DNA from: Cellvibrio sp. PSBB023
GTDB lineage: Bacteria; Pseudomonadota; Gammaproteobacteria; Pseudomonadales; Cellvibrionaceae
DNA: 64,000 bases
NCBI RefSeq assembly: GCF_002007605.1
Contig: NZ_CP019799.1
Coordinates: 1,364,001 to 1,428,000, forward strand
Reading direction: 5' to 3'
Positions 2,064 to 15,477 of this stretch are shown here, piece by piece. The position numbers and the translations under genes were made by a program. Numbering within the stretch: position 1 is the first letter of the stretch; each line of letters starts with the position of its first letter. The notes beneath the pieces were generated by a model. The model had not been told where the DNA came from. It ran no database searches and saw only the letters and a list, made by a program, of their open reading frames with translations.

Positions 2064-5000
2064 AGATTCATCCCCACGGACGTGGGGAACGCGGGTTCGG
2101 GGAGCGTAGCGACTAGGGCGCGGCCGGTTCATCCCCACAGGCATGGGGAACGCTGGCCGCGAATGTTGCGACCCTGGAGTCGGACCGGTTCATCCCCACG
2201 GGCGTGGGGAACGCATCTCAGGCCTCCGCCGGGAATACCCCAAACGCAGGTTCATCCCCACGGGTGTGGGGAACGCTGTGATTTCGCCTGCGCTTTCGCT
2301 CATTTCTGCGGTTCATCCCCACGGGTGTGGGGAACGCCGATTACAGGCCGCCATGAACATTCCCAGCTCCGGTTCATCCCCACGGGCGTGGGGAACGCTA
2401 ACCCAGCGCCTGTGCGAGTACGCAAACGCGCGGTTCATCCCCACGGGCGTGGGGAACGCGGGCAGCTTTGGGTCTTCTCTCACCGAACTAACGGTTCATC
2501 CCCACGGGCGTGGGGAACGCGAAATCGCCCGCATTAACCGAGAATGCAGACTCGGTTCATCCCCACGGGCGTGGGGAACGCTGTGGAGTTAGCTGCATGC
2601 AACCCGGCAAATGCGGTTCATCCCCACGGGCGTGGGGAACGCTGGTGGCGCACCGGGTTTTCCTAATGCTGTAACGGTTCATCCCCACGGGCGTGGGGAA
2701 CGCAAGCGAAGAGGTGCGCAAAATCACCTCATTGCCGGTTCATCCCCACGGGCGTGGGGAACGCCTATCAGAAAGCTACCAAGGGCAGATTAAATGCGGT
2801 TCATCCCCACGGGCGTGGGGAACGCATGAGAAAGAACAAAAGTGGAAGCGTATCATACGGTTCATCCCCACGGGCGTGGGGAACGCAGCTACACCAACAC
2901 GTGCAGTAATACCTGCAGCGGTTCATCCCCACGGGCGTGGGGAACGCTCAATGCGATTGTTGCGAGCAGCGTGAACCATCGGTTCATCCCCACGGGCGTG
3001 GGGAACGCCCAAGTGTTAATGTCCTGATTTTGCTGCGCAACGGTTCATCCCCACGGGCGTGGGGAACGCAAAACTGGCAGAAGTCGTGTCAATTCTATTC
3101 GCGGTTCATCCCCACGGGCGTGGGGAACGCTTAGATTCAATACTGATGCCACGCCTTCTACCCGGTTCATCCCCACGGGCGTGGGGAACGCTTACCTGCG
3201 TCCCAATTGGCACGGTGTAAACACGGTTCATCCCCACGGGCGTGGGGAACGCACTCCGATGACGTGAAGGGCGACAACGTTAAGCGGTTCATCCCCACGG
3301 GCGTGGGGAACGCAGTGGTGAATTTGCACCGCAGTGTTATTTGCTCGGTTCATCCCCACGGGCGTGGGGAACGCGCTGGCATGTATCACACGCAGTGGGC
3401 AAAGCACGGTTCATCCCCACGGGCGTGGGGAACGCCACCTAAAAACGAGCACGGCTATGTGCCAGATCGGTTCATCCCCACGGGCGTGGGGAACGCGGTT
3501 TTTCCGCCCAATCAAAACAGAGCGAGAGCGGTTCATCCCCACGGGCGTGGGGAACGCTCGAATCGATGCTGGCAAGGGCGTTATGGTCGCGGTTCATCCC
3601 CACGGGCGTGGGGAACGCACTATGGCGATGAGGCTCGCCGCGTTGAGTACCGGTTCATCCCCACGGGCGTGGGGAACGCCACCAAAGTTTGAACCAGTTA
3701 CCACGCACCGCCGGTTCATCCCCACGGGCGTGGGGAACGCCATATTGCGACAAGAGAAAGGAGGTTCATATGCGGTTCATCCCCACGGGCGTGGGGAACG
3801 CCGGATGGAGTTGGACTACCACTTGTATCTATGCGGTTCATCCCCACGGGCGTGGGGAACGCTTCAGCCTCCGGCCCCGCTAGCGTGGCTATTACGGTTC
3901 ATCCCCACGGGCGTGGGGAACGCGGTTTGTATAGCCAACTATAAAAAAACGACAGCGGTTCATCCCCACGGGCGTGGGGAACGCTCGATAATTTCACATT
4001 TAACAATCTCGCCGCGCGGTTCATCCCCACGGGCGTGGGGAACGCTGAAATGGGGATAGCAAAATGAAAACAGGAAACGGTTCATCCCCACGGGCGTGGG
4101 GAACGCAATGTTGTAGCTGACGGCATCCGGCTCAGAAACGGTTCATCCCCACGGGCGTGGGGAACGCTTGAAAGCTGACCTGCAATTTTACCTCCATTCC
4201 GGTTCATCCCCACGGGCGTGGGGAACGCTGCATCCCTCGCGGTTATTGTTAAGCGGTCTACGGTTCATCCCCACGGGCGTGGGGAACGCTCACCGGGAAT
4301 AGGTACGGTAGTGTGCCCCTGCGGTTCATCCCCACGGGCGTGGGGAACGCTCACCGGGAATAGGTACGGTAGTGTGCCCCTGCGGTTCATCCCCACGGGC
4401 GTGGGGAACGCTGCCCTTGATCGACCTGCAACCGGCGAAAATGCGGTTCATCCCCACGGGCGTGGGGAACGCCCATGTACTTATAGAGTCACCCACTAAA
4501 CAAACGGTTCATCCCCACGGGCGTGGGGAACGCTCATCTATTAGTTCATAATATCCAAGATTTATCGGTTCATCCCCACGGGCGTGGGGAACGCCCGAAG
4601 AGCTTGCCGCAGCTACCCAGCAATTGCGGTTCATCCCCACGGGCGTGGGGAACGCCCGAAGAGCTTGCCGCAGCTACCCAGCAATTGCGGTTCATCCCCA
4701 CGGGCGTGGGGAACGCATCGCGCTGTCACCCCTGTTACGTTTCTGCGACGGTTCATCCCCACGGGCGTGGGGAACGCGATTTCAGATTCAAAGCAGGCAT
4801 ATGTGCAGTCGGTTCATCCCCACGGGCGTGGGGAACGCTTAACGTGTGAGACTCTAGGTCATACTCAACGCGGTTCATCCCCACGGGCGTGGGGAACGCT
4901 AATTTTTCATCACTAAAATCGCGCGCTGCGCCGGTTCATCCCCACGGGCGTGGGGAACGCAAATCATTGACCAAAATGATTTGCCCGAGCTGCGGTTCAT

Positions 5001-5388
5001 CCCCACGGGCGTGGGGAACGCTTGTTCTGACCAAAGCATGAAGTCTTTGGGCGCGGTTCATCCCCACGGGCGTGGGGAACGCTTCCTCTGCCAACAGCAG
5101 ATTAAACAAGCGCTCGGTTCATCCCCACGGGCGTGGGGAACGCTTACCACCGTATTGCATGGGTTTTGCCAAGAACGGTTCATCCCCACGGGCGTGGGGA
5201 ACGCTCGCCTCTGCGCATTGCCAATATATCACGCGCCGGTTCATCCCCACGGGCGTGGGGAACGCCGATTTTGTTCTATTATTTTTGCAAAACCGTCCGG
5301 TTCATCCCCACGGGCGTGGGGAACGCGTCTGAAGCGCAAGTTCAACTCGCCATGGCTGGCGGTTCATCCCCACGGGCGTGGGGAACGC
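2064..5388 (-). CRISPR. Type I-E CRISPR array, 55 repeats / 54 spacers
   Basis: 29-bp repeats alternate with 32-nt spacers (61-bp period); spacers 3 and 54 counted from the left are 33 nt. In the transcribed (minus) orientation the repeat begins GCGTTCCCCACG and ends CGTGGGGATGAACCG, with a 7-bp stem CCCCACG/CGTGGGG, close to the E. coli type I-E repeat. I counted 55 repeats by locating each copy. The left end is the old trailer: the first two repeats carry 3 and 2 substitutions, and the fourth and fifth share a C-to-T change (GGGTGTGGGG). The right end is uniform and abuts cas2, so the leader is on the right and transcription runs leftwards. Spacers 37 and 38 are identical, as are 42 and 43. 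Chance open frames inside the array are not genes. Confidence 0.99.
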
Positions 5389-6710: not shown

Positions 6711-6718
<8 letters not shown>

Positions 6719-7214
6719 TGGCTAACTCCAAAATCTGTGCAACCAGCGCATCACTTAAAAAATAACCTGAGGCAATTAGTTCTTGCAATTTTAGCTTAAC
6801 AGCAGGCAATAAACCTTTGCGTTTAGCCAGCAATAACACACCGGGAGCGCCAATTATTTTGAGGTGATGAGCTTTGGCCGCTAAACGCCCCAAACGCTCA
6901 TCAATCAAGACAGTTGCCTGTTCGACCAGTGCGTATTCCAAGGCGGTTTGTTCACCGCGATCCAAATGCGATAACGACACGCGCACTTGCGGGTCAGGTA
7001 CAACAAGTAAAAAACCAGCATGGATTGCAGCTTGGACTCGCTGCGCGTCAAGGCGCTCCAACTTAACCAAGCACTCAGCCGCTACGCTTTGCGTAACGCA
7101 GACCTGATCAAAAAGCCCGCACAAGGCTTGTAAAAAATCAACGCGCGCCAACGCCAATAATGGGCTGGTATCAGCTACCAATAATTGATTAGTCCTTGAA
7201 TTGCTCAAGCTCAT
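6711..7214 (-). CDS. DUF3368 PIN-like toxin embedded in the cas operon
   Basis: 167 residues from the ATG at 7214, which has AAGGAAGAG nine bases upstream; an earlier ATG at 7244 is possible but would overlap the antitoxin more. Seen: LLVADTSPLLALARVDFL (first PIN acidic residue), LDRGEQTALEYAL (Glu), VLIDERLGRLAA (Asp) and IIGAPGVLLLAKRKG, the standard layout of DUF3368 proteins, which are PIN-related putative RNases paired with UPF0175 antitoxins. It overlaps the antitoxin gene by 26 bp and the cas1 start by 8 bp. Inferred role: toxin of a type II module that may stabilise the CRISPR locus or act if Cas expression is disturbed. RNase activity is inferred from family only. Confidence 0.85.
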
Positions 7215-7515
7215 CCGCCAACTCTTCCTTTGAGTAATCAACAACAGGGATCTTTTTCTTTGCCAATATATCCATCATTTCAGAGGCAGATACACCAGCC
7301 ACACGCGCAGCTTGCACCAAGGTTGCCTGATGACTTGCAAACAACCGTATCGCCAGAGACATCCCAACACCAGATTCCAACAAAGCGTCATCAAACGGCA
7401 CTGCCACAAATACTGGCTGCCCATGTTTGGTGATAAGCGACAAATGCCCCAACTCCGCCTCGCGGATAAGCTCCCCTGTGCGATTGCGCAGGTCACGAAC
7501 CGTAAACATCTCCAT
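7189..7515 (-). CDS. Phd-UPF0175 type antitoxin embedded in the cas operon
   Basis: 108 residues from the ATG at 7515, preceded by GAGG; the longer frame starting at 7581 would run through the promoter and operator and is not preferred. The N-terminal ~45 residues (FTVRDLRNRTGELIREAE, then HGQPVFVAVPFDD) are Phd/YefM-like DNA-binding antitoxin. The C-terminal ~60 (SLAIRLFASHQATLVQAA, then ILAKKKIPVVDYSKEELADE) match UPF0175, which normally neutralises DUF3368 toxins. It therefore looks like a two-part protein that binds its operator and its toxin. It lies 109 bp downstream of cas6e. Confidence 0.85.
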   Translation of the reverse strand: MEMFTVRDLRNRTGELIREAELGHLSLITKHGQPVFVAVPFDDALLESGVGMSLAIRLFASHQATLVQAARVAGVSASEMMDILAKKKIPVVDYSKEELADELEQFKD

Positions 7516-7527
7516 AAAAACCTCAAT

Positions 7528-7549
7528 TGTGCCAACAAGTGTTGGCACA
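7528..7549. promoter_or_regulatory. Palindromic operator of the toxin-antitoxin pair
   Basis: A perfect inverted repeat: TGTGCCAACA, 2-bp centre AG, TGTTGGCACA. It lies 12 bp upstream of the antitoxin start and directly after the predicted -10 box. Phd-type antitoxins typically bind such palindromes to autorepress, so this is the likely operator. Confidence 0.75.
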
Positions 7550-7577
7550 TTTTGCGCGCCGGATGGTTGTTTTTCAA
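7549..7577 (-). promoter_or_regulatory. Internal promoter for the toxin-antitoxin-cas1-cas2 segment
   Basis: On the minus strand TTGAAA (7572-7577) and CAAAAT (7549-7554) are separated by 17 bp, a plausible sigma-70 promoter in the only sizeable gap downstream of cas6e. It would transcribe antitoxin, toxin, cas1, cas2 and possibly the array, separately from the Cascade genes. Sequence match only. Confidence 0.5.
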
Positions 7578-7624
7578 GCAAACATGTCTAAACACATCGA
7601 ATTCGAGGGGTTTAGGCGTAGCCA

Positions 7625-8395
7625 TCAAATGCGGCGTACAAGCATCAAACCACAGCCGAAGGCTTTAGATGGCCCCAAACCTGATACCAGCATCTGCATG
7701 AACAACTCAGGATCTTCAACCGTCACAACCCCCTCGTAGTCCATCGAGCTAAAACCCGCGTTGCGATCCTTTTCAGGTAAAGCATTCCACCGATAGCCAG
7801 TCGCCTCAACGCTGTTCAACTCATAGCCATGAGTAACGCCACGTTTTTTGATCCAATCTACTGCCGCAGTTTCAGTTGCCACATCCAAAGCATCAGAAAA
7901 CTCTTTGCGTTGCTCATAATTTTGAAAGTCAGCATGACCAAATAAGAGTGCTCGCAAATCGCTTTTCTTCTCCAAGCATGACAATCCTCGTGCTTTGCAT
8001 GCAGCAATCAAAAATTGGCGCTGAGCATCCATCACCACATCGTGCTTGCTGGAGTTTTTCTTACCCTCCACTTTGCGCGCAACTATAGGATTTGCTCGCA
8101 ACTTAAAGGCTAGCTGATCACCTCTACTTAAACTGGGCGAAAATGGTTTTGTATCAATCTTAAAAATGGGTGATTCCAACACCGGCTTCTCTACCGAGAG
8201 AACATAGTAAAGCGGTAAATGCCTCTCCATCCCCAACTGGTCTTGAGTGTTTTCTTCACGGAATAAAAACCGCTCTTTAGACTCGAACAAGTCCCACAAA
8301 AGCCTGTGCATACCGTAGCTACGCTCTTTGAGTAATAAACCCAATTGCGAGTAATTGGCTATGGCAGCGGTTAATTCAATGCGTGATAAATACAT
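7625..8395 (-). CDS. cas6e: Cas6e (CasE), pre-crRNA endoribonuclease
   Basis: 256 residues, longer than the ~200 of E. coli CasE. Seen: MYLSRIELT start, GMHRLLWDLFE with the probable catalytic His near residue 30, FKLRANPIV, YEGVVTVED and the C-terminal glycine-rich loop GLGPSKAFGCGLMLV. It cuts pre-crRNA at the base of the repeat hairpin, leaving the 8-nt 5' handle (AUGAACCG here), and stays on the crRNA 3' hairpin in Cascade. It starts at the cas5e stop. The extra ~55 residues lie mostly in the middle (about 100-190). Confidence 0.95.
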   Translation of the reverse strand: MYLSRIELTAAIANYSQLGLLLKERSYGMHRLLWDLFESKERFLFREENTQDQLGMERHLPLYYVLSVEKPVLESPIFKIDTKPFSPSLSRGDQLAFKLRANPIVARKVEGKKNSSKHDVVMDAQRQFLIAACKARGLSCLEKKSDLRALLFGHADFQNYEQRKEFSDALDVATETAAVDWIKKRGVTHGYELNSVEATGYRWNALPEKDRNAGFSSMDYEGVVTVEDPELFMQMLVSGLGPSKAFGCGLMLVRRI

Positions 8396-9186
8396 CAGCT
8401 AGCCTCCTTACTTGTGTCTAACTTGCTGTTATGCAACCACAGGTATTCCGTGCGTGGTGCAAACTGCCAGCGACGGCGCGATGTTGGTTTGTCATGACGC
8501 GAAAGTTTTTGTACATGCTGCGGATTAAAAATCTGATCCTGTGCAGAAAAACTGTGTAAGTCGCCCTCCCAGTAATAATGCGTCAGATCATCGTGAGGCA
8601 ACCAACGAGCATCACTCTCCCATTCGTATTTACCGCTCAATAAGGTTTTTACTGAATAGTCATCCAGTGCTTGACGAAAATTATCGGCAGTAATAATTTG
8701 CGCAGCCAGAGGTGCAGACAAGGGACAAGACTTGCGCCCTAAATACAAATGAAACTTGGGTGACTGCAACGCGTCTTGTAACGATTGCAAATCATAAGGC
8801 GCTCCATCCAACGCTTTGATGGCAATAATTGCTTGCGCATCGGTGCGATATTCACGAGTTGATAACACAGTTCCCAAACGATCTTTACCCTGCACAATTT
8901 CATCGCGCCGCGTACGGTAGCGAAACTTGCCTACAGAATCCGGCGCTTGGGCAGTGTGGTAATCCTTGAGCACCTGCCCGGCTTTTAGTAACTTAACTGC
9001 TTGCCAATAACCTTCGGTTAATTGGTTATGCAACTCCTCTTGCTCACGCCGAATGCCCAGCGCCGCTGCCAATAAACCAGTAATGGCAGACTTGCTTGGG
9101 TAGACTGCACTGTGGCGCGCCTCCCCTACTGCAATTTCCCCCCAACTGGCCATTGGCCCATAGAGGCGAAAAACTAAAAAGTCCAT
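8395..9186 (-). CDS. cas5e: Cas5e (CasD), Cascade subunit
   Basis: 263 residues. Seen: FRLYGPMASWGEIAVGEAR then YPSKSAITGLLAAALGI at the N-terminus, typical of Cas5e, and YLGRKSCPLSAPL in the middle. Cas5e caps the 5' handle of the crRNA and contacts Cas8e and the Cas7 backbone. It lies 8 bp after cas7e and shares its last base with the first base of cas6e, in a tightly packed operon. The family assignment is firm. Confidence 0.95.
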   Translation of the reverse strand: MDFLVFRLYGPMASWGEIAVGEARHSAVYPSKSAITGLLAAALGIRREQEELHNQLTEGYWQAVKLLKAGQVLKDYHTAQAPDSVGKFRYRTRRDEIVQGKDRLGTVLSTREYRTDAQAIIAIKALDGAPYDLQSLQDALQSPKFHLYLGRKSCPLSAPLAAQIITADNFRQALDDYSVKTLLSGKYEWESDARWLPHDDLTHYYWEGDLHSFSAQDQIFNPQHVQKLSRHDKPTSRRRWQFAPRTEYLWLHNSKLDTSKEAS

Positions 9187-9194
9187 ATCGCCTC

Positions 9195-10268
9195 CTAGTG
9201 AGTTACAAATTCAAGTAACTCACTCATGCTGCCTTCCGCTGTTATCGCATTGAGCTTGTAAGACGCATCACTGCAATTGCCATAAACTTTATCAAAATTA
9301 GCTGCTTGTAATTCCAACGCGGCAATAGATTCAGCCGCATAATCTTCTGCATTTTTACCCAAGGGTTTTAAGAAGGCGACAGACAACGAACGCGGCTGTT
9401 GATTGCCCAGCTCAGCACGAACATAGGACGCATAAGCGCGGCTGCCAAAACTGTTTTGTTTGCCCGCAGGCGCCACTTTAATCGCCGCTTCGGTTAGGGC
9501 TTGAATCGCTTTGTCGGCGAGTGCTTTATCGCCATTAAGGTTTTCGATAAGCAGCTCTTTATTGATGCAGATGTAGGAATAAAACAGGCCTGCAGCAAAA
9601 CCCGTTTCGCCAATGTGCGCTGCACCCGCATCCTCATTGTGATCATTCAAATCATCTACCGCAGTAAAGTAATCGTCTTCAATCACCACACCGTGAACAG
9701 AAATAGCGTGGGCAACTTGGCAAGCGGCCTCAACATTAAATGAAGGTTTGGAAGCCAACATACGACCAAACAAAGCAATGTCTGCTGCCATTTCGCTTGC
9801 GCGCAATATAGTTAATTCGTTTTCTTCGGGCGCCCGCTGTTCGGCAATTAACGTTTTCACCAAACTATCAATAACTGTTTGTTCGGCTTGACTGACATGC
9901 ACTAACTGCTCAATCTCCAAGTCATTAAAAGGGTTATTTGCGTCTTCTTTTTTGAGCTTTCCAAATTGCCCTGCAATAGCCTGTGCCCAGGTTTTGGCTT
10001 TTTTATCTACTATGCCGCCTGCCAATAACTGCTGGTATACATTTACACCAAGCATTTTTGAGCGAACCCCCACATGTCCATGCAAAGCATCTTGAAACAA
10101 ATCCGACGTGCGCCAAGTACGCTTTAAACTTTGCGATGAAACCCTCAGGCGATCCACTCCACCCATTTTGGCTGTCTTGGGGCGCCCTAAATCATCGCGG
10201 TTTAAATTGGCAGGAGGATAAGAAGTAAGTAAATGTAATTGTAAAAAACGGTTTTCTTGATTAGTCAT
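9195..10268 (-). CDS. cas7e: Cas7e (CasC), Cascade backbone subunit
   Basis: 357 residues from the ATG at 10268, chosen because AAGGAG lies a few bases upstream; an 18-residue longer frame reaches back to 10322 but would overlap cse2. Seen: FLQLHLLTSYPPANLNRDD, then RLRVSSQSLKRTWR, and GFAAGLFYSYICINKE, all Cas7e landmarks. Six copies form the helical backbone along the crRNA spacer. The gap to cse2 is 25 bp. Confidence 0.96.
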   Translation of the reverse strand: MTNQENRFLQLHLLTSYPPANLNRDDLGRPKTAKMGGVDRLRVSSQSLKRTWRTSDLFQDALHGHVGVRSKMLGVNVYQQLLAGGIVDKKAKTWAQAIAGQFGKLKKEDANNPFNDLEIEQLVHVSQAEQTVIDSLVKTLIAEQRAPEENELTILRASEMAADIALFGRMLASKPSFNVEAACQVAHAISVHGVVIEDDYFTAVDDLNDHNEDAGAAHIGETGFAAGLFYSYICINKELLIENLNGDKALADKAIQALTEAAIKVAPAGKQNSFGSRAYASYVRAELGNQQPRSLSVAFLKPLGKNAEDYAAESIAALELQAANFDKVYGNCSDASYKLNAITAEGSMSELLEFVTH

Positions 10269-10293
10269 GGTATAGCTCCTTGTGAAATTAGAA

Positions 10294-10851
10294 TTAGTCT
10301 TTAAATGCGGCGTAGTAATCACTGGCCCAACGAACCGCCAAGCGGTCTTCGGGTTTACTGGCGGGGCCAGTGCGAAATTCGATTAACCAATGGGCGATGT
10401 CGTCGGCCAGCGAGGCGATATTGGCTTTACCTCCCAACAGATTTACCGCCCGACAAACGCGGGTAAAAAAATCTTCCGGTGAACGGCTTTTTTGTAATTG
10501 CTGAAAACGCAGCTCACTCATAGCAGCTTTACCACCCGCCTCTTTCGGCAGCGCTAGCGATTTAGCAAAGCTAACATCTGCTTTTTGTGGTTCGCTTTTT
10601 ACCCGCGCTAAAACTGCTGCAATCAGCGCGATTTCAGAAATAGAAAGCACAACTCCTTTACCGGTTGAACCTGTACCCCAAGTTTCTGGCATAGCCTGGA
10701 GAAAATGTGCAAATGCCGAAGTTAACAGCACATCATCCGCATTAGCCGCACGGCGCAATTGGGCACGATCACCACGCTTATCATCCAGCCCTGCCCACCA
10801 GCGCTTTAAACAGCTTGCATCCTCTTCGCTGATTTTTTTTAACTTAATCAT
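10294..10851 (-). CDS. casB: Cse2 (CasB, Cas11e), small Cascade subunit
   Basis: 185 residues, mostly helical, close to the size of E. coli CasB. Seen: LKRWWAGLDDKRGDRAQLRR near the N-terminus, a Cse2 hallmark, and SRSPEDFFTRVCRAVNLL. Two copies form the inner belly of Cascade and stabilise the R-loop. It overlaps the cas8e stop by one base. Function follows from family and position. Confidence 0.95.
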   Translation of the reverse strand: MIKLKKISEEDASCLKRWWAGLDDKRGDRAQLRRAANADDVLLTSAFAHFLQAMPETWGTGSTGKGVVLSISEIALIAAVLARVKSEPQKADVSFAKSLALPKEAGGKAAMSELRFQQLQKSRSPEDFFTRVCRAVNLLGGKANIASLADDIAHWLIEFRTGPASKPEDRLAVRWASDYYAAFKD

Positions 10852-12434
10852 TACGCCACCTCCTCTGTTGTAGCTGCCAACTGCTCTAAATGTTGCAGGC
10901 TTTTTAACTTGCCCAAGTTAATTAATAAAAATCGGCGCGCACTGGTAATTCGCTTCATGTCCATGTCTTCCGCATCGCCCTCTAACACCCAGTAGTCAAA
11001 TAACGTCAAGGCTTGGTTAAACATAAGTTTTCGCCAAGTAGCGGCCACGCTTGCAGGCATAGTGCGGGTGTTACTGGGCTGTTCAGCGAGTATTTTTAAT
11101 TGCTGATAGAAAACAGGTTCTGTAGCTTGCCAGAAGGATTGATCAATCATGCTGGTATCGCCTTTAACATCCTTAGGGCGACTAAACCAACCGGACTTTA
11201 CTTGTGAACGCAATTCTTTAATTACATCTCTTGCGCTATTAAGCAGATCAGAAACCAGCTTAAAAAATAGCTCCCTATATTCTTCGCCGATAGCAATAAC
11301 TGGCATGGTCTGCTCGTACCAGCAGCGGGCTTTCATGTTGTCCATGTCATAACCAAAGCTCCACAGTTTTACCGCATCGCATGAATCCAATACGCGCAGT
11401 TTGCTGTCGTAAAAATGCTTGATGCTCAAGGCAGCTGCATCACCATTACTCGGATCTGCCCACATAAGCCCCAACCAATGCCTATAGCCCAAGCCGCCCT
11501 GCTGACCTTTAAGGCTGAGTGGCGGTTGTTCATTTTTTGGATCAAAGCGATAGGGTGTTAAGGGATGAACCCAGGGACCTTCATAGTTCACACCGTAATT
11601 CTTGGTGCGGAAATGGGAAAATAATTCAGTGCAAGCATCGCCACATAAATCACACACGCCTGCGCCTTGGGTTGGCTCAAGGCGAATACGTCGCGGCATA
11701 CCCCAATACATTTGTAGCGGATGAACATCATCAGGCAGGGTTGCGCCGCCAGTTTTGTCGGACACTCGGGTAGCAGCCATCCAAGGGAAAATATCACCAC
11801 TGGGTGTGTGAGCTTTGGGGGCTAATTCTTCTTCAGTTAACACGTTCAACCACAGTTTTTGCCACAAACTCGCATGAGCGCTTTCGGGCAGCAACAAGCT
11901 CGTTAATGGGCCACCACCACGCAATCCAACGCGATGCCCCACCCCGCCCGAGGGCGCATTAGTTTGTAACGTAAATAAGGCGCTCGCGGTACAACTGGCG
12001 CAAGCACCTGCCAGCGTGCCACCTTTTACAAAGTGATCGAGATGGTCTTTAAGGGTTTTACCGCCGGGGGCATCTATTAACAAAGCCGCCAATTCCTTGG
12101 GCTCATCATCCAGAACTGTAAAGTCCTGCAGAAAAGCCAAGCCTTGCGGGTTAAAAAATTCAAAGGCGCCGGAGAAAGGTGCCAGCACCTCTTTTAGTTG
12201 CTCGGTACTGGGCGGAGCCTGCCAATACTTTAGCCACTCGTCTTCATCCTCGGACGCAAAGCTGGTTTGCAAAAGTCCAATTAAAAACTGATACAAAGCC
12301 CCCTGAAAATCTGGCCTTGGGGCAGCCAGCTCCACCACTGAATTTCCTGTATCAGTTAGTTGCCAGGGCGCAATTTTGCCCCTTTGTCCATCCGCATGAA
12401 TAACGGGTATCCACGGATCATTGATTAAGTTCAT
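10851..12434 (-). CDS. casA: Cas8e (Cse1, CasA), large PAM-recognising Cascade subunit
   Basis: 527 residues from the ATG at 12434 (AGGAGG just upstream; an in-frame GTG lies one codon earlier). Seen: LINDPWIPV at the N-terminus; the glycine-rich segment GGVGHRVGLRGGGPLTSL, part of the DNA-contacting region; and a Cys-rich stretch CDLCGDACTELFSHF. Cas8e reads the PAM, opens the duplex and recruits Cas3. It lies 15 bp downstream of the small ORF at 12450-12608 with no terminator between, so the two are probably cotranscribed from the promoter at 12639-12667. Confidence 0.96.
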   Translation of the reverse strand: MNLINDPWIPVIHADGQRGKIAPWQLTDTGNSVVELAAPRPDFQGALYQFLIGLLQTSFASEDEDEWLKYWQAPPSTEQLKEVLAPFSGAFEFFNPQGLAFLQDFTVLDDEPKELAALLIDAPGGKTLKDHLDHFVKGGTLAGACASCTASALFTLQTNAPSGGVGHRVGLRGGGPLTSLLLPESAHASLWQKLWLNVLTEEELAPKAHTPSGDIFPWMAATRVSDKTGGATLPDDVHPLQMYWGMPRRIRLEPTQGAGVCDLCGDACTELFSHFRTKNYGVNYEGPWVHPLTPYRFDPKNEQPPLSLKGQQGGLGYRHWLGLMWADPSNGDAAALSIKHFYDSKLRVLDSCDAVKLWSFGYDMDNMKARCWYEQTMPVIAIGEEYRELFFKLVSDLLNSARDVIKELRSQVKSGWFSRPKDVKGDTSMIDQSFWQATEPVFYQQLKILAEQPSNTRTMPASVAATWRKLMFNQALTLFDYWVLEGDAEDMDMKRITSARRFLLINLGKLKSLQHLEQLAATTEEVA

Positions 12435-12449
12435 CACACCTCCTCTATG

Positions 12450-12608
12450 TCATGCCTTGTTTTTCGATATTACTAAGATGCCAAATATCAACGCCATCCC
12501 AGCCACAACCCCAAAGATCAACGCCAGTGCAACTAAAGCGCTCGCAGACGGTGAAAGTTGATTTAACTGCTCAAAAAGCTGTAATAGAGACTGAAACAAT
12601 TGCGCCAT
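12450..12608 (-). CDS. Small hydrophobic membrane peptide, first gene of the Cascade operon
   Basis: A 52-residue frame: ATG at 12608 with a strong GGAGG eight bases upstream, stop TGA at 12450-12452. It begins MAQLFQSLLQLFEQLNQLSP (amphipathic, Gln/Leu-rich). A probable transmembrane helix of ~25 residues follows (from about A22: ALVALALIFGVVAGMALIFG), then the basic tail SKNKA. I recognise no family. It sits between cas3 and cas8e, 15 bp from cas8e, and is the first cistron after the predicted cas promoter, whose -35 is the predicted target of the CreR-like guide. It could be a Cas accessory membrane peptide, a leader peptide, or a CRISPR-repressed toxin. Whether it is translated is unproven, but the ribosome site and hydrophobic pattern favour it. 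Confidence 0.65.
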   Translation of the reverse strand: MAQLFQSLLQLFEQLNQLSPSASALVALALIFGVVAGMALIFGILVISKNKA

Positions 12609-12638
12609 AACACGACCCTCCGTCATCAAGTTGAATAC

Positions 12639-12667
12639 AAGATAACCAGGATCATTATTTTTGTAAA
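12639..12667 (-). promoter_or_regulatory. Predicted promoter of the small ORF-cas8e-cse2-cas7e-cas5e-cas6e operon
   Basis: Minus strand TTTACA (12662-12667; 5 of 6 to TTGACA) and TATCTT (12639-12644; 4 of 6 to TATAAT) with exactly 17 bp between. Transcription would start near 12632, giving a ~24-nt leader to the small ORF. A second, weaker pair (TTGATC/TAAGAT) lies further upstream. The -35 box overlaps the AAG of the guide target. Confidence 0.55.
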
Positions 12668-12688
12668 GTACATACGGGTTTTTTATTT
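12666..12688 (+). promoter_or_regulatory. Predicted Cascade target site: AAG PAM plus 15-nt seed match to the CreR-like guide
   Basis: AAG at 12666-12668 is followed by TACATACGGGTTTTT (12669-12683), identical to the first 15 nt of the guide at 12752-12766. The match then degrades (17 of 20 overall). AAG is the canonical E. coli type I-E PAM and lies immediately 5' as required. A partial match of this kind is expected to allow binding without cleavage. The site covers the -35 box of the cas operon promoter. Confidence 0.65.
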
Positions 12689-12709
12689 TATCTTATTGGA
12701 AATAACCTG

Positions 12710-12715
12710 TATGAT
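12710..12715 (+). promoter_or_regulatory. Candidate -10 box for the crRNA-like RNA
   Basis: TATGAT (5 of 6 to TATAAT) on the plus strand would start transcription near 12721-12723, exactly where the first degenerate repeat begins. No good -35 box is visible at 16-18 bp (TTTATC at best), so activity may be modest or activator-dependent. Confidence 0.4.
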
Positions 12716-12720
12716 CAAAA

Positions 12721-12800
12721 CCGTTCTCTGGAGACTTTCAGAGATGAACCGTACATACGGGTTTTTCAAATACGTTCCCCACCTTCGTGGGGATTTTTTA
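12721..12800 (+). ncRNA. CreR/CreA-like crRNA-like guide RNA (degenerate repeat - 20-nt guide - degenerate repeat)
   Basis: First degenerate repeat 12723-12751: internal sequence diverged, but a 6-bp stem TCTCTG/CAGAGA remains and it ends in ATGAACCG, the exact 8-nt crRNA handle of this locus. Guide 12752-12771, beginning TACATACGGGTTTTT. Second degenerate repeat 12772-12800: 19 of 29 positions match the array repeat in the same orientation, including CGTTCCCCAC and CGTGGGGAT, forming a perfect CCCCAC/GTGGGG stem with loop CTTC. That stem runs straight into TTTTTT, so it is also an intrinsic terminator. Cas6e could process it into a short crRNA. Established precedent: CreR (Cas-regulating RNA) and CreA use Cascade and a partial match to repress a promoter. 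The second repeat overlaps the antisense strand of the cas3 3' end. Expression is unproven. Confidence 0.7.
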
Positions 12801-15477
12801 CCCCCAACCATCCATCTACAGCCCGATACAAACACTCAGCACCCTGAATAAGGGGTATTAGCTCTACCCACCGCAGACTCACTTCACGCTCTTTGAGCTG
12901 CTCCAAAGACTCCATCAAACCCTTTGGAATCAGCTTCTTAGCCTGCTCCCACTCAGCCTTGGGTAAACTCAATTGGCTTAATGCCCACTTGTGCGGAACA
13001 TCGCCCGCATAGGCAACCCAATTACCATCATCACCCTGTTTTACCAACACACAGGTCACCGTATCGCCACCCAAACGCGTGGGGATATTGACCTCCTCAC
13101 TCCAGCCGCCATTGTGAATAGCGCTCGCTTGGGTGTAACCCTTATCCAACTTCAGCTGATTAAAATTGCCCATACCAGCCTCAGCTCGCTGTTCGCCTTC
13201 GGCTTTTTTGCTCGCCGCTGTTAATTCATTGGGAATTTCATCTTGAGCATCGTCGCTATAAACCCCCTCAATCAATTCGCGGGCATCCTGCGGCATGGAA
13301 AAACCATCATTTTTTAACAGCACTTTGGTGGTTAGCCAAAGCTGGCCAACATTGGGATAAACCGCTTGGGTGCCGGGCAACAAGCCACGCAACCATTGGC
13401 TATCTGCAACCTGTGCCGGATCGGGCGATAAAAGCCACAAGCAAGGCGGCTCACGCTGCTCTTGTGCATCCTCACCGATTAAAGGCTCGCCCTGCATAGT
13501 TCTGATATGACGCTGCAACCGGCCTGCTCGCTGGATTAATAAATCAACTGGCGCCAAGTCGCTAACCATTACGTCAAAATCCAAATCCAAGCTTTGTTCT
13601 ACAACTTGAGTAGCGATGAGAATCTGCCCTGCGCGATCCGCTGCTTTTGAGATCTTACCGAAGCGTCGCAACACATCCGACTCAACCATTTGACGATCAA
13701 CCATTACATAACGGCTGTGAAATAAACTGAGTTTTTCCGGCTCTCTCCACGATTGGCTTTGCAAATACTGATAAGCATTGCGCGCATCTTTAACAGTATT
13801 ACGAATCCAACATACACACCGCCCCTGCTCCACCATTTTCTGAATTAACGCAAAGGCTTCATCTTCATTATTCAAACGTTGCACAGCCACACGCCGCTCA
13901 ACACTTTTACGAGAAGCAACAGGTGACTCCTGAAAATTTTCTTTACTTAATTGAGTCACCCAAGGGTAAGTGGCTTGCTCATTTAACTCTGGGGCTAACA
14001 AACTTGCACCTCGCGCAAAGGCCCCGGTTAGCTCACTACGAAAACGATAGGGCAATGTCGCAGAAAGCAAAATAACACTGCCACCTTGCGCGGCATGTGC
14101 CTGCAACAAAGCCACCAACAAGCTACGCATATAGGGATCAAAGGCGTGAACCTCATCCACTAGCAATACCTTATTCGTTAAACCCAATAAACGTAGGGAT
14201 TGATGGCGCGCTGGTAAAACACCCAATAAAGCTTGATCAATGGTGCCGACACCTACATCAGCCAATAAAGCTTTTTTGCGGCTATCAGCCAACCAATGAT
14301 TGCAATAAGCGCTGGCCGACAACTCATTGGCTTCATAATTTTTGTCGTCTGTCTGTGTCAATAAAGCAACTGAATCACTAAAAGCTTTTGATAATTTACT
14401 GGCACCATGAGCCAAGACCAAAGAAGGCAATTCTTGTTCAGCGTATAAGCTGCGATAACTTTCCGACATGCGCTTGTACATAGCATTAGCCGTCGCCATA
14501 GTCGGCAAACCAACATATAAACCACTTGCCAAGCCTGCCGCCATCAACCTATGTACCAACACCATGGCAGCCTCGGTTTTCCCTGCGCCGGTAACATCCT
14601 CAAGAATAAATAGCTGCGGAGCTTGCCCCAACTCAACAGTTTGCGCATAAGCCTGCAAGGGCGTTGGGCTTTTAATGAAATCGAACTGTTGGCGAATGGA
14701 TACAAATGGATTAACAAGCCTATTACCGATACCCGCAAGCTCAACCGCCTCAACTGCTTTAGGTAACGCTCTGGTTTCCCAGTAGTCTTTGAGTGGCATT
14801 GACTCAACACAGTATTTAAAAACCGCCTGATTGGAACCTAACCAATCCGCCAAAACAGCCAATCCCGCAAATTGCCATGAGACTTGCTTAAAGATTTTTT
14901 TATCAACTGACTGTAATGGCGTCAGGTCAGGCATCCATTGCGCAATAACATCTGCAACAAACTGCTCTGCAGCTATTTCATCTTCTTCCAACAGGTAAGG
15001 TTTAATAACCCGTAAACTTTCCGGCGGCTTTCCATGATGACCGCACACAACCTCTAACCACCCCTCAAAAATACGAGAATATTCGGCAGGGATTGACTGC
15101 ATCATTTTTTTATTTAAAACGTTCACCCATAAAGCGAAACCGAGCGTGTCATGCCTTTTGTCATAAATACAATTATTATCAAAAGGCACAAGTGAAGAGG
15201 ATAGATTTGGTGCGAGATTCTGAAATGCGCGGCAGAACTTCCCTAAATCATGCAGCATCAAACAAAAGCAAAACCACGATTGTAACCACCGAGGATCAAC
15301 ATTTAATTGAGTAGCCAAGTGCTTGCATAGTAGCTTTTCAGGATCGAGCAATGAATAACCCACCGCCGCCACATCCAAACAATGGTATGGCAACAAGTGA
15401 TAATCAGGCCCTTCGGCCTGCGGGTCTTTTTTTGCTTTACCCCAATACTGAAAATAACTTTCCACTGCTTTCCTCAT
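12766..15477 (-). CDS. cas3: Cas3, HD nuclease-helicase
   Basis: 903 residues. The N-terminal HD nuclease domain has HDLGKF (H76, D77) and HHGKPPE near residue 150. The helicase follows, with EDVTGAGKTEAA (Walker A), LLVDEVHAFDP (DEVH box), ILLSATLP (motif III) and IQRAGRLQRH (motif VI). Cas3 is recruited by Cascade at a full R-loop to nick, unwind and degrade target DNA. All catalytic motifs are present. The last codons (PHEGGERI) coincide with the second degenerate repeat of the guide RNA on the other strand. It is separated from cas8e by ~330 bp, so cas3 has its own promoter, probably within 15478-15583. Confidence 0.97.
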   Translation of the reverse strand: MRKAVESYFQYWGKAKKDPQAEGPDYHLLPYHCLDVAAVGYSLLDPEKLLCKHLATQLNVDPRWLQSWFCFCLMLHDLGKFCRAFQNLAPNLSSSLVPFDNNCIYDKRHDTLGFALWVNVLNKKMMQSIPAEYSRIFEGWLEVVCGHHGKPPESLRVIKPYLLEEDEIAAEQFVADVIAQWMPDLTPLQSVDKKIFKQVSWQFAGLAVLADWLGSNQAVFKYCVESMPLKDYWETRALPKAVEAVELAGIGNRLVNPFVSIRQQFDFIKSPTPLQAYAQTVELGQAPQLFILEDVTGAGKTEAAMVLVHRLMAAGLASGLYVGLPTMATANAMYKRMSESYRSLYAEQELPSLVLAHGASKLSKAFSDSVALLTQTDDKNYEANELSASAYCNHWLADSRKKALLADVGVGTIDQALLGVLPARHQSLRLLGLTNKVLLVDEVHAFDPYMRSLLVALLQAHAAQGGSVILLSATLPYRFRSELTGAFARGASLLAPELNEQATYPWVTQLSKENFQESPVASRKSVERRVAVQRLNNEDEAFALIQKMVEQGRCVCWIRNTVKDARNAYQYLQSQSWREPEKLSLFHSRYVMVDRQMVESDVLRRFGKISKAADRAGQILIATQVVEQSLDLDFDVMVSDLAPVDLLIQRAGRLQRHIRTMQGEPLIGEDAQEQREPPCLWLLSPDPAQVADSQWLRGLLPGTQAVYPNVGQLWLTTKVLLKNDGFSMPQDARELIEGVYSDDAQDEIPNELTAASKKAEGEQRAEAGMGNFNQLKLDKGYTQASAIHNGGWSEEVNIPTRLGGDTVTCVLVKQGDDGNWVAYAGDVPHKWALSQLSLPKAEWEQAKKLIPKGLMESLEQLKEREVSLRWVELIPLIQGAECLYRAVDGWLGVKNPHEGGERI

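Follow-up and report, generated by a model that had tools for sequence, protein, structure and literature searches.

Between cas3 and cas8e of the type I-E CRISPR-Cas locus of Cellvibrio sp. PSBB023 lies a short sequence that resembles a CRISPR guide and whose beginning is repeated beside a predicted promoter reading toward cas8e. An earlier note on this DNA proposed that Cascade loaded with the guide represses its own synthesis by acting on the promoter of the cas8e operon. The question raised by the locus is whether it holds such a guide-directed switch and which gene the switch would control. The analysis covered a stretch of 64,000 nucleotides, referred to here as the window, from the complete 4.7-Mb genome of this member of the genus Cellvibrio, as well as cas8e loci of related bacteria. 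Autorepression is probably half the story, since the first gene under the predicted promoter is not cas8e but an ORF for a 52-amino-acid membrane peptide that the earlier note had missed, since hydrophobic small ORFs recur after the targets in relatives, and since there is a type I-E precedent in Citrobacter rodentium.

The guide, its target and the predicted promoter

The type I-E genes of the window are on the minus strand in the order cas3, cas8e, cse2, cas7e, cas5e, cas6e, cas1e and cas2e, followed by the main CRISPR array, whose spacers are 32 nt long (Table 1). The start codon of cas8e is ATG 12434, with GTG 12437 as a possible alternative. In the main array a repeat-spacer unit is duplicated exactly at two places (4261-4412 and 4566-4716), and between cas1e and cas6e the minus strand encodes a toxin-antitoxin-like pair consisting of a DUF3368/PIN-like protein and a Phd-like/UPF0175 protein (6711-7244 and 7189-7581).

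Table 1. Features of the type I-E locus, in window positions
Feature	Position	Strand	Basis or remark
Main CRISPR array	2066..5388	-	period 61; crRNA sense on minus strand; handle ATGAACCG
cse2, cas7e, cas5e, cas6e (rest of Cascade)	7625..10851	-	open frames above family cut-offs
cas8e (cse1/casA), first Cascade gene	10851..12434	-	TIGR02547, 378 bits
52-aa ORF, candidate Cascade-repressed toxin	12450..12608	-	ATG inside longer TTG ORF 12450-12629
Predicted promoter TTTACA-17-TATCTT for membrane-peptide ORF and cas8e	12639..12667	-	consensus scan; -35 overlaps PAM
AAG PAM adjoining the target of the guide	12666..12668	+	sequence match
Target (protospacer), identical to guide nt 1-15	12669..12683	+	exact match
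Degenerate 5' repeat of mini-CRISPR	12723..12751	+	stem TCTCTGGA/TTCAGAGA
Guide	12752..12771	+	20 nt if repeat boundaries kept
Nearly normal 3' repeat of mini-CRISPR	12772..12799	+	stem 12776-12793, then T6; overlaps cas3 3' end
cas3	12766..15477	-	last codons overlap guide and 3' repeat of mini-CRISPR

The guide belongs to a two-repeat mini-CRISPR (12723-12799) that forms a separate unit between cas3 and cas8e; a main-array spacer was rejected as its identity because it lies outside the array. The 5' repeat ends in the crRNA handle ATGAACCG (12744-12751), the same as in the array repeats, and as RNA the unit folds into two repeat hairpins (-25.9 kcal/mol, z -2.9). The 3' boundary of the guide was deduced from how far away the 3' stem lies. 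This stem and the T6 that follows it were also scored as terminator-like by a scan (shuffles average 0.4), and they possibly double as a terminator. A promoter scan of 12400-12900 found no promoter for the guide. By eye, TATGAT at 12710-12715 is a possible element of such a promoter, which, if there, would put bound Cascade near its -35 too.

As the earlier note had claimed, the first 15 nt of the guide recur exactly, with AAG on the correct side. The plus strand of the window carries two copies of TACATACGGGTTTTT, one being the target and the other (12752-12766) the beginning of the guide, and without mismatch this 15-mer is present at exactly two places in the whole genome; a shuffled window contains a mean of 0.08 sites for it with up to 2 mismatches. 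When AAG was combined with the first 11 guide nucleotides and position 6 was left free, one perfect site was found in the genome, which is the target itself, and 0 of 20000 Markov shuffles of 12438-12735 yielded AAG plus the 15-mer at up to 2 mismatches.

The hexamers TTTACA and TATCTT and their 17-bp spacer are present on the minus strand as described before, and the scan returned them as the sole promoter-like site in 12400-12900. Since shuffles average 1.2 sites, which is within chance for a consensus scan, the promoter call is a prediction only. The overlap of the AAG with the -35 element was borne out in part, as only the two A's of the AAG are inside the hexamer (12662-12667). Transcription is predicted to start near 12632, and cas8e is the second gene after the predicted promoter, with no other promoter-like site between them by scan. 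Guide-directed binding of Cascade at the predicted promoter is very probable, given the pairing profile of relatives described below, and repression of cas8e by way of the guide is likely.

Guide-target pairs in related loci

Loci with cas8e were collected from the family (19 of 144 genomes), the order (33 of 390) and the class (37 of 369), from 14 further stretches and from the best 80 of 457 named matches. The resulting set of 174 loci (L009-L182), in which the cas8e start was found in 160 and of which 132 are distinct, leans to near relatives and is not an estimate of prevalence. A search rule that privileged no guide position asked for the handle AACC[GAT], a hairpin on both sides, and an AAG-flanked target at most 300 nt away with at most 3 mismatches in 13; it replaced an earlier scan that had left position 6 free (3 of 520 shuffles). 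Matches to the rule were found in 39 of the 132 distinct loci versus 12 of 660 shuffled loci before a filter on handle and position (handle xT[GCA]AACCx, pair upstream of cas8e), after which 36 of the 132 loci remained. Matches dropped by rule were those of L035, L074 and L133 and the second matches in L071, L078, L123 and L160, and those dropped by eye were L070, L090, L118, L131, L169 and the second L157 match. The count of 36 is not exact, as it leaves uncounted several loci that are likely real, namely L024, L151, L052 and L137 (another handle or a sub-threshold hairpin) and L062 and L087 (PAMs AAA and AAT), and as L041 holds a peptide gene with a relic of the element.

The guide is always on the strand opposite to cas8e in the 36 loci, and its start is separated from the PAM of the target by 58-160 nt. 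In four of them (L020, L121, L126 and L128) guide and target are on different strands. The guides fall into 19 clusters, and each matches a site in its own locus. Distances from the guide start to the 3' stem form two classes, 24-27 nt (13 loci; 24 nt in the window) and 36-37 nt (22 loci), with 38 nt by eye in L047. The guide lengths of the 36 loci appear as two classes 12 nt apart, of about 20 and 32 nt. A step of 12 nt equals two Cas7 footprints, so the guide of the window would be 20 nt long instead of 32.

Among the 5' repeats, 18 of the 36 loci share a common register, and 96% of their stem cells pair, a percentage that is partly circular since a hairpin was required for entry. These degenerate repeats keep a stem through changes on both sides: the cells so changed number 28 in the 18 loci versus 7.3 in shuffles, with 0 of 500 shuffles reaching 28, while the number of pairs with a change on both sides is 5 versus 3.3 and was reached by 45 of 500 shuffles. 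The window's own stem has another register and is outside this count. By eye, the guide ends of L114, L123, L141, L151, L161 and L165 are inverted repeats of each other (ATTCTATC...GATAGAAT in L123), and such a guide could fold on itself and hide the seed. Upstream of cas8e in L022 and L024, two AAG-flanked copies of the target are present for one guide.

Agreement between guide and target across the 36 pairs is 97-100% at positions 1-5, 7, 8, 10, 11 and 13, 89% at 9 and 14, 69% at 15, 44% at 16 and lower beyond, and only 28% at position 6 and 28% at position 12. The first 13 nt contain 26 mismatches at position 6, 26 at position 12 and 8 across the other 11 positions together; Fisher p for the excess at 6 and 12 is 1e-43, or 7e-23 with one locus per guide cluster (19). 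Positions 6 and 12 are the bases that Cascade flips out. The pair of the window itself is matched at both, so that the mismatch rhythm comes from the relatives only. When the PAM was not asked for, the best 11-nt match of each locus was flanked by AAG alone in 30 loci and tied with AAG among the candidates in 6, AAG having been an entry condition. The relatives thus display type I-E guidance, with seed pairing, free positions 6 and 12 and an AAG-type PAM, the last of these being part of the search. A Cas9 or an antisense-RNA mechanism was rejected, since the 6-nt rhythm of the relatives is taken to fit Cascade. Binding without cleavage would be expected to leave a pairing profile like theirs, and in this respect the earlier interpretation, which invoked binding without cleavage by Cas3, is well supported.

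According to PMC5904413, type I-E interference in E. coli has its optimal PAM in AAG, off-target binding of Cascade there left local expression unchanged, and a study cited in that paper found promoter repression to be much lower with 6 PAM-distal mismatches. These findings imply that pairing over 15 nt may repress only weakly. The natural pairs, with positions 6 and 12 free and contact to about nucleotide 15, are a record, left by nature, of what may be required for Cascade to act without cleavage.

The membrane-peptide gene in front of cas8e

The 52-aa ORF has GGAGG 8 nt before its ATG and ends 15 nt before cas8e. The peptide has one predicted TM helix, and an AlphaFold2 model based on 19 sequences has a helix-kink-helix shape in which helix 2-18 is separated from helix 22-51 by a break at SPS (mean pLDDT 83). 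No Pfam family was found above cut-off, KilA-N included, and no NCBIfam family at E 0.001. A large protein database gave 32 matches, of which one is the window's own peptide and none has a Pfam domain; the names of these 32 offer nothing beyond hypothetical or uncharacterized and no relative of known function. No description of the family was found in a literature search outside of which lie Liu 2023, Shu 2024 and Li 2021, which may describe it.

The peptide of the window and those of Saccharophagus, Microbulbifer, Methylomonas and others form one family (profile A3), which is present in 16 of the 132 distinct loci at positions ranging from adjoining cas8e to about 0.6 kb upstream of it. The initial count was 12 of the 36 mini-CRISPR loci versus 4 of the 96 others, and three of those four (L151, L052 and L137) proved to carry a mini-CRISPR as well, for a total of 15 of 16; the remaining locus, L041, has the peptide with only a relic 3' repeat. 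Whole-genome searches at E<=1e-4 found the family in 3 of 144, 5 of 381 and 1 of 340 genomes, six of them distinct, and in each the gene is no more than about 100 nt upstream of cas8e. In the 381- and 340-genome sets scoring was limited to 20-22 candidates per genome, so that absence from other places is not strictly established there. The 144-genome search also gave two weaker matches (E 0.004-0.006). Pooled pN/pS across seven 36-aa A3 genes is 0.21, which indicates that the protein is the conserved thing.

Small ORFs after the target extend beyond this family. In 20 of the 36 loci the target is followed, at a distance of 10-170 nt, by the start of a 30-66-aa ORF with a hydrophobic stretch, 16 of these ORFs having a ribosome site, versus 43 (1.4%), 13 with a ribosome site, of 3084 placements made with the identical rule and offsets in 91 loci without the element, a control that excludes L024, L041, L052, L137 and L151. 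One of the 20 (L020) is a doubtful ORF without a ribosome site. With a stricter rule that took cas8e as its anchor, such ORFs were counted in 10 of 36 loci against 1 of 93. The hydrophobic small ORFs of L022, L047, L059, L126, L136, L138 and L175 gave no match to profile A3 at E 0.01, and no hydrophobic ORF was found by rule in 16 of the 36 loci. By eye, a small ORF of lower hydrophobicity is present in L048, L089 and L171, and in L161 and L165 (Tamilnaduibacter, Alloalcanivorax) and L145 the hydrophobic ORF is replaced by a small basic or polar one of about 48-51 aa; these basic or polar ORFs are other candidate Cascade-repressed products. In certain Methylomonas and Methylobacter loci, HicB and HicA are encoded between the membrane-peptide ORF and cas8e (L121:3033-3475, by Pfam; L123 and L128 by eye), and L116 has by eye HicB-like only.

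The small gene bears on whether the guide does anything beyond adjusting Cascade. As PMC12737573, PMC13131331 and PMC12948488 relate, CreR (Liu et al. 2023, Cell Host Microbe) is a crRNA-like RNA, described for types I-B, I-E and V-A, that brings the effector to the promoter of its own cas genes and senses both anti-CRISPRs and the supply of crRNA; according to PMC12737573, it is generally not coupled with a toxin gene. The guide of the window resembles CreR in its limited complementarity to the predicted promoter of its own type I-E cas operon, but differs in having a conserved membrane-peptide gene, a candidate toxin, between promoter and cas8e. On a pure CreR reading the guide only tunes the level of Cascade, and the peptide is either a leader that does no harm or a membrane factor with an accessory role. 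Such promoter-directed autorepression being on record for type I-E, and cas8e following the 52-aa ORF at 15 nt, this reading accommodates the window, and it suits the 9 of 36 loci whose target is 23-131 nt before cas8e, an arrangement that fits plain autorepression; five loci (L053, L057, L066, L071 and L078) have no ORF by rule in the 23-105 nt between target and cas8e. It is difficult to reconcile with L126 and L136, in which target and ORF are 2.9 kb upstream of cas8e and before a cas3 gene, so that the ORF tracks the target rather than cas8e, with conservation of the peptide as a protein, or with whole-genome searches that, within the candidates scored, found the peptide only beside cas8e. 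We regard pure CreR as unlikely, though worth keeping in view.

Related systems and the place of the cassette in type I-E biology

CreTA (Cascade-repressed toxin-antitoxin) applies the principle of CreR to a toxin. The closest system is the type I-E CreTA of C. rodentium, with which the window was compared by its published description (PMC12055562). There, in the cas3/casA gap, a guide on the opposite strand has its target, with the PAM ATG, over the UP element of a promoter that is followed by a 96-bp ORF without annotated relatives and then casA. The ORF arrests growth only if translated, from which a Cascade-repressed toxin was concluded, and deletion of casD was harmful in mice only while the CreTA region was present (PMC12055562). 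The window agrees in the order of parts, the guide strand, the PAM-flanked target and the small ORF before casA, whereas its own ORF encodes 52 aa, belongs to a conserved TM family and stands 15 nt from cas8e, and its PAM is AAG.

In the type I-B system of Haloarcula hispanica, deleting the creTA region cut transcription from cas8 to cas2 by 72-93% (PMC9458426), a sign that in that system a single promoter region is shared with cas genes. A degenerate two-repeat unit beside cas8 is common to H. hispanica and the window. In H. hispanica the toxin consists of RNA that contains rare AGA arginine codons (PMC9458426, PMC8501985, PMC12737573), unlike the 52-aa ORF, which has zero arginine codons; an RNA toxin of that kind was rejected for the window on this ground. 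The elements of a CreTA system are recognizable in the window as a crRNA-like gene with intact handle between degenerate repeats (12723-12799), partial complementarity beside a PAM at the predicted promoter, and a small gene (12450-12608) directly under that predicted promoter. Based on the order of parts in C. rodentium and the promoter region serving cas genes in H. hispanica, we hold with moderate confidence that the region of about 12438-12800 is a type I-E CreTA-like cassette in which the membrane peptide is the likely toxin, co-regulated with Cascade as the first gene of the Cascade operon. Toxicity of the 52-aa peptide, taken for itself, is somewhat favored by analogy.

In the proposed mechanism, the plus-strand mini-CRISPR would give rise to one crRNA-like RNA whose 5' handle is normal and whose guide is short. 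With this RNA, Cascade would bind AAG-TACATACGGGTTTTT, which lies immediately upstream of the -35 of the divergent promoter and touches it, and would thereby block RNA polymerase; because pairing stops after nucleotide 15, Cas3 would not be engaged. From this promoter the single-TM peptide, a probable growth-inhibiting toxin, would be expressed first, and read-through would then extend to cas8e and the remaining Cascade genes. Loss or inhibition of Cascade, or competition that displaces the guide, would open the promoter, whereupon the peptide would guard the locus and more Cascade would be made.

A Cascade-repressed peptide might instead serve mainly as an anti-anti-CRISPR alarm leading to abortive infection, rather than for addiction. 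It would then work like CrePA, whose protein toxin is freed when an Acr disables the effector, and the candidate protein toxin of the window would likewise be under a Cascade-guided promoter; CreP, though, typically has KilA-N (PMC12737573), and that domain is lacking in the window peptide, which led to rejection of CreP by domain and makes the alarm reading improbable. That the match is a chance repeat or a decayed spacer without function is very hard to credit, as the earlier note had argued with respect to chance, because the absence of the cassette from a type I-E relative in the same genus is outweighed by the result of the 20000 shuffles and by recurrence in relatives with unlike guides and Cascade-type mismatches.

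That relative is Cellvibrio sp. 79, the other type I-E Cellvibrio, cas8e having been matched in only 2 of 21 genomes of the genus. Its Cas8e is 77% identical to that of the window, and its cas3 overlaps cas8e by 4 nt, with no guide and no peptide between. The CreTA-like cassette thus comes and goes as a unit and is dispensable.

E. coli K-12 MG1655 has a related element, a mini-CRISPR, between cas3 and casA (L194:1640-2072), where TTCCCTACTTAAGTAGGGATAAACCG, then TTATTGGTCTTATTATCG and then a second stem are found opposite to casA, the handle being ATAAACCG (also noted across L195-L197). A partial match, AAG-TTATTCGTTTTATTATTA, is located about 160 nt away on the casA side and was equalled in 11 of 20000 shuffles. 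In strain JNE151685 the G at position 7 is replaced by A in guide and target alike, and within the first 13 nt the two differ at 6 and 12; two other E. coli strains have mismatches at 6, 9 and 12. Of 5426 E. coli genomes, 1105 have a near copy of the region at 80% coverage or more; four were inspected. The divergent antisense anti-Pcas transcript known from this gap would then be a guide RNA. No literature on the K-12 element was found in a search that left outside Liu 2023, Shu 2024 and Li 2021, any of which may hold it.

Autorepression by CreR-type RNAs has been published (PMC12737573 and PMC13131331), and guide-directed autorepression and Cascade-repressed toxins are both already known. New here are the conserved membrane peptide tied to the target of the guide, the position of its gene as the first of the Cascade operon, and the rhythm of pairing seen in natural guide-target pairs. 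A single sequence match has thereby become a testable system in which a guide RNA, a DNA site, a membrane-peptide family with no known function and the Cascade genes would be placed under one switch. We tentatively suggest, with more doubt than confidence, a recurrent type I-E module whose single Cascade-guided promoter ties the Cascade genes to a conserved single-pass membrane toxin, with relatives of the guide element in other type I-E cas3-casA gaps, including that of E. coli K-12. If this is true, inhibiting Cascade would at once trigger a membrane alarm and the production of new Cascade, and the antisense side of the E. coli K-12 cas promoter would be a guide gene rather than noise. The findings suggest that, in a good share of type I-E loci, Cascade may guard and regulate the very locus that encodes it, in which case hosts of this kind may not be indifferent to its deletion or inhibition.
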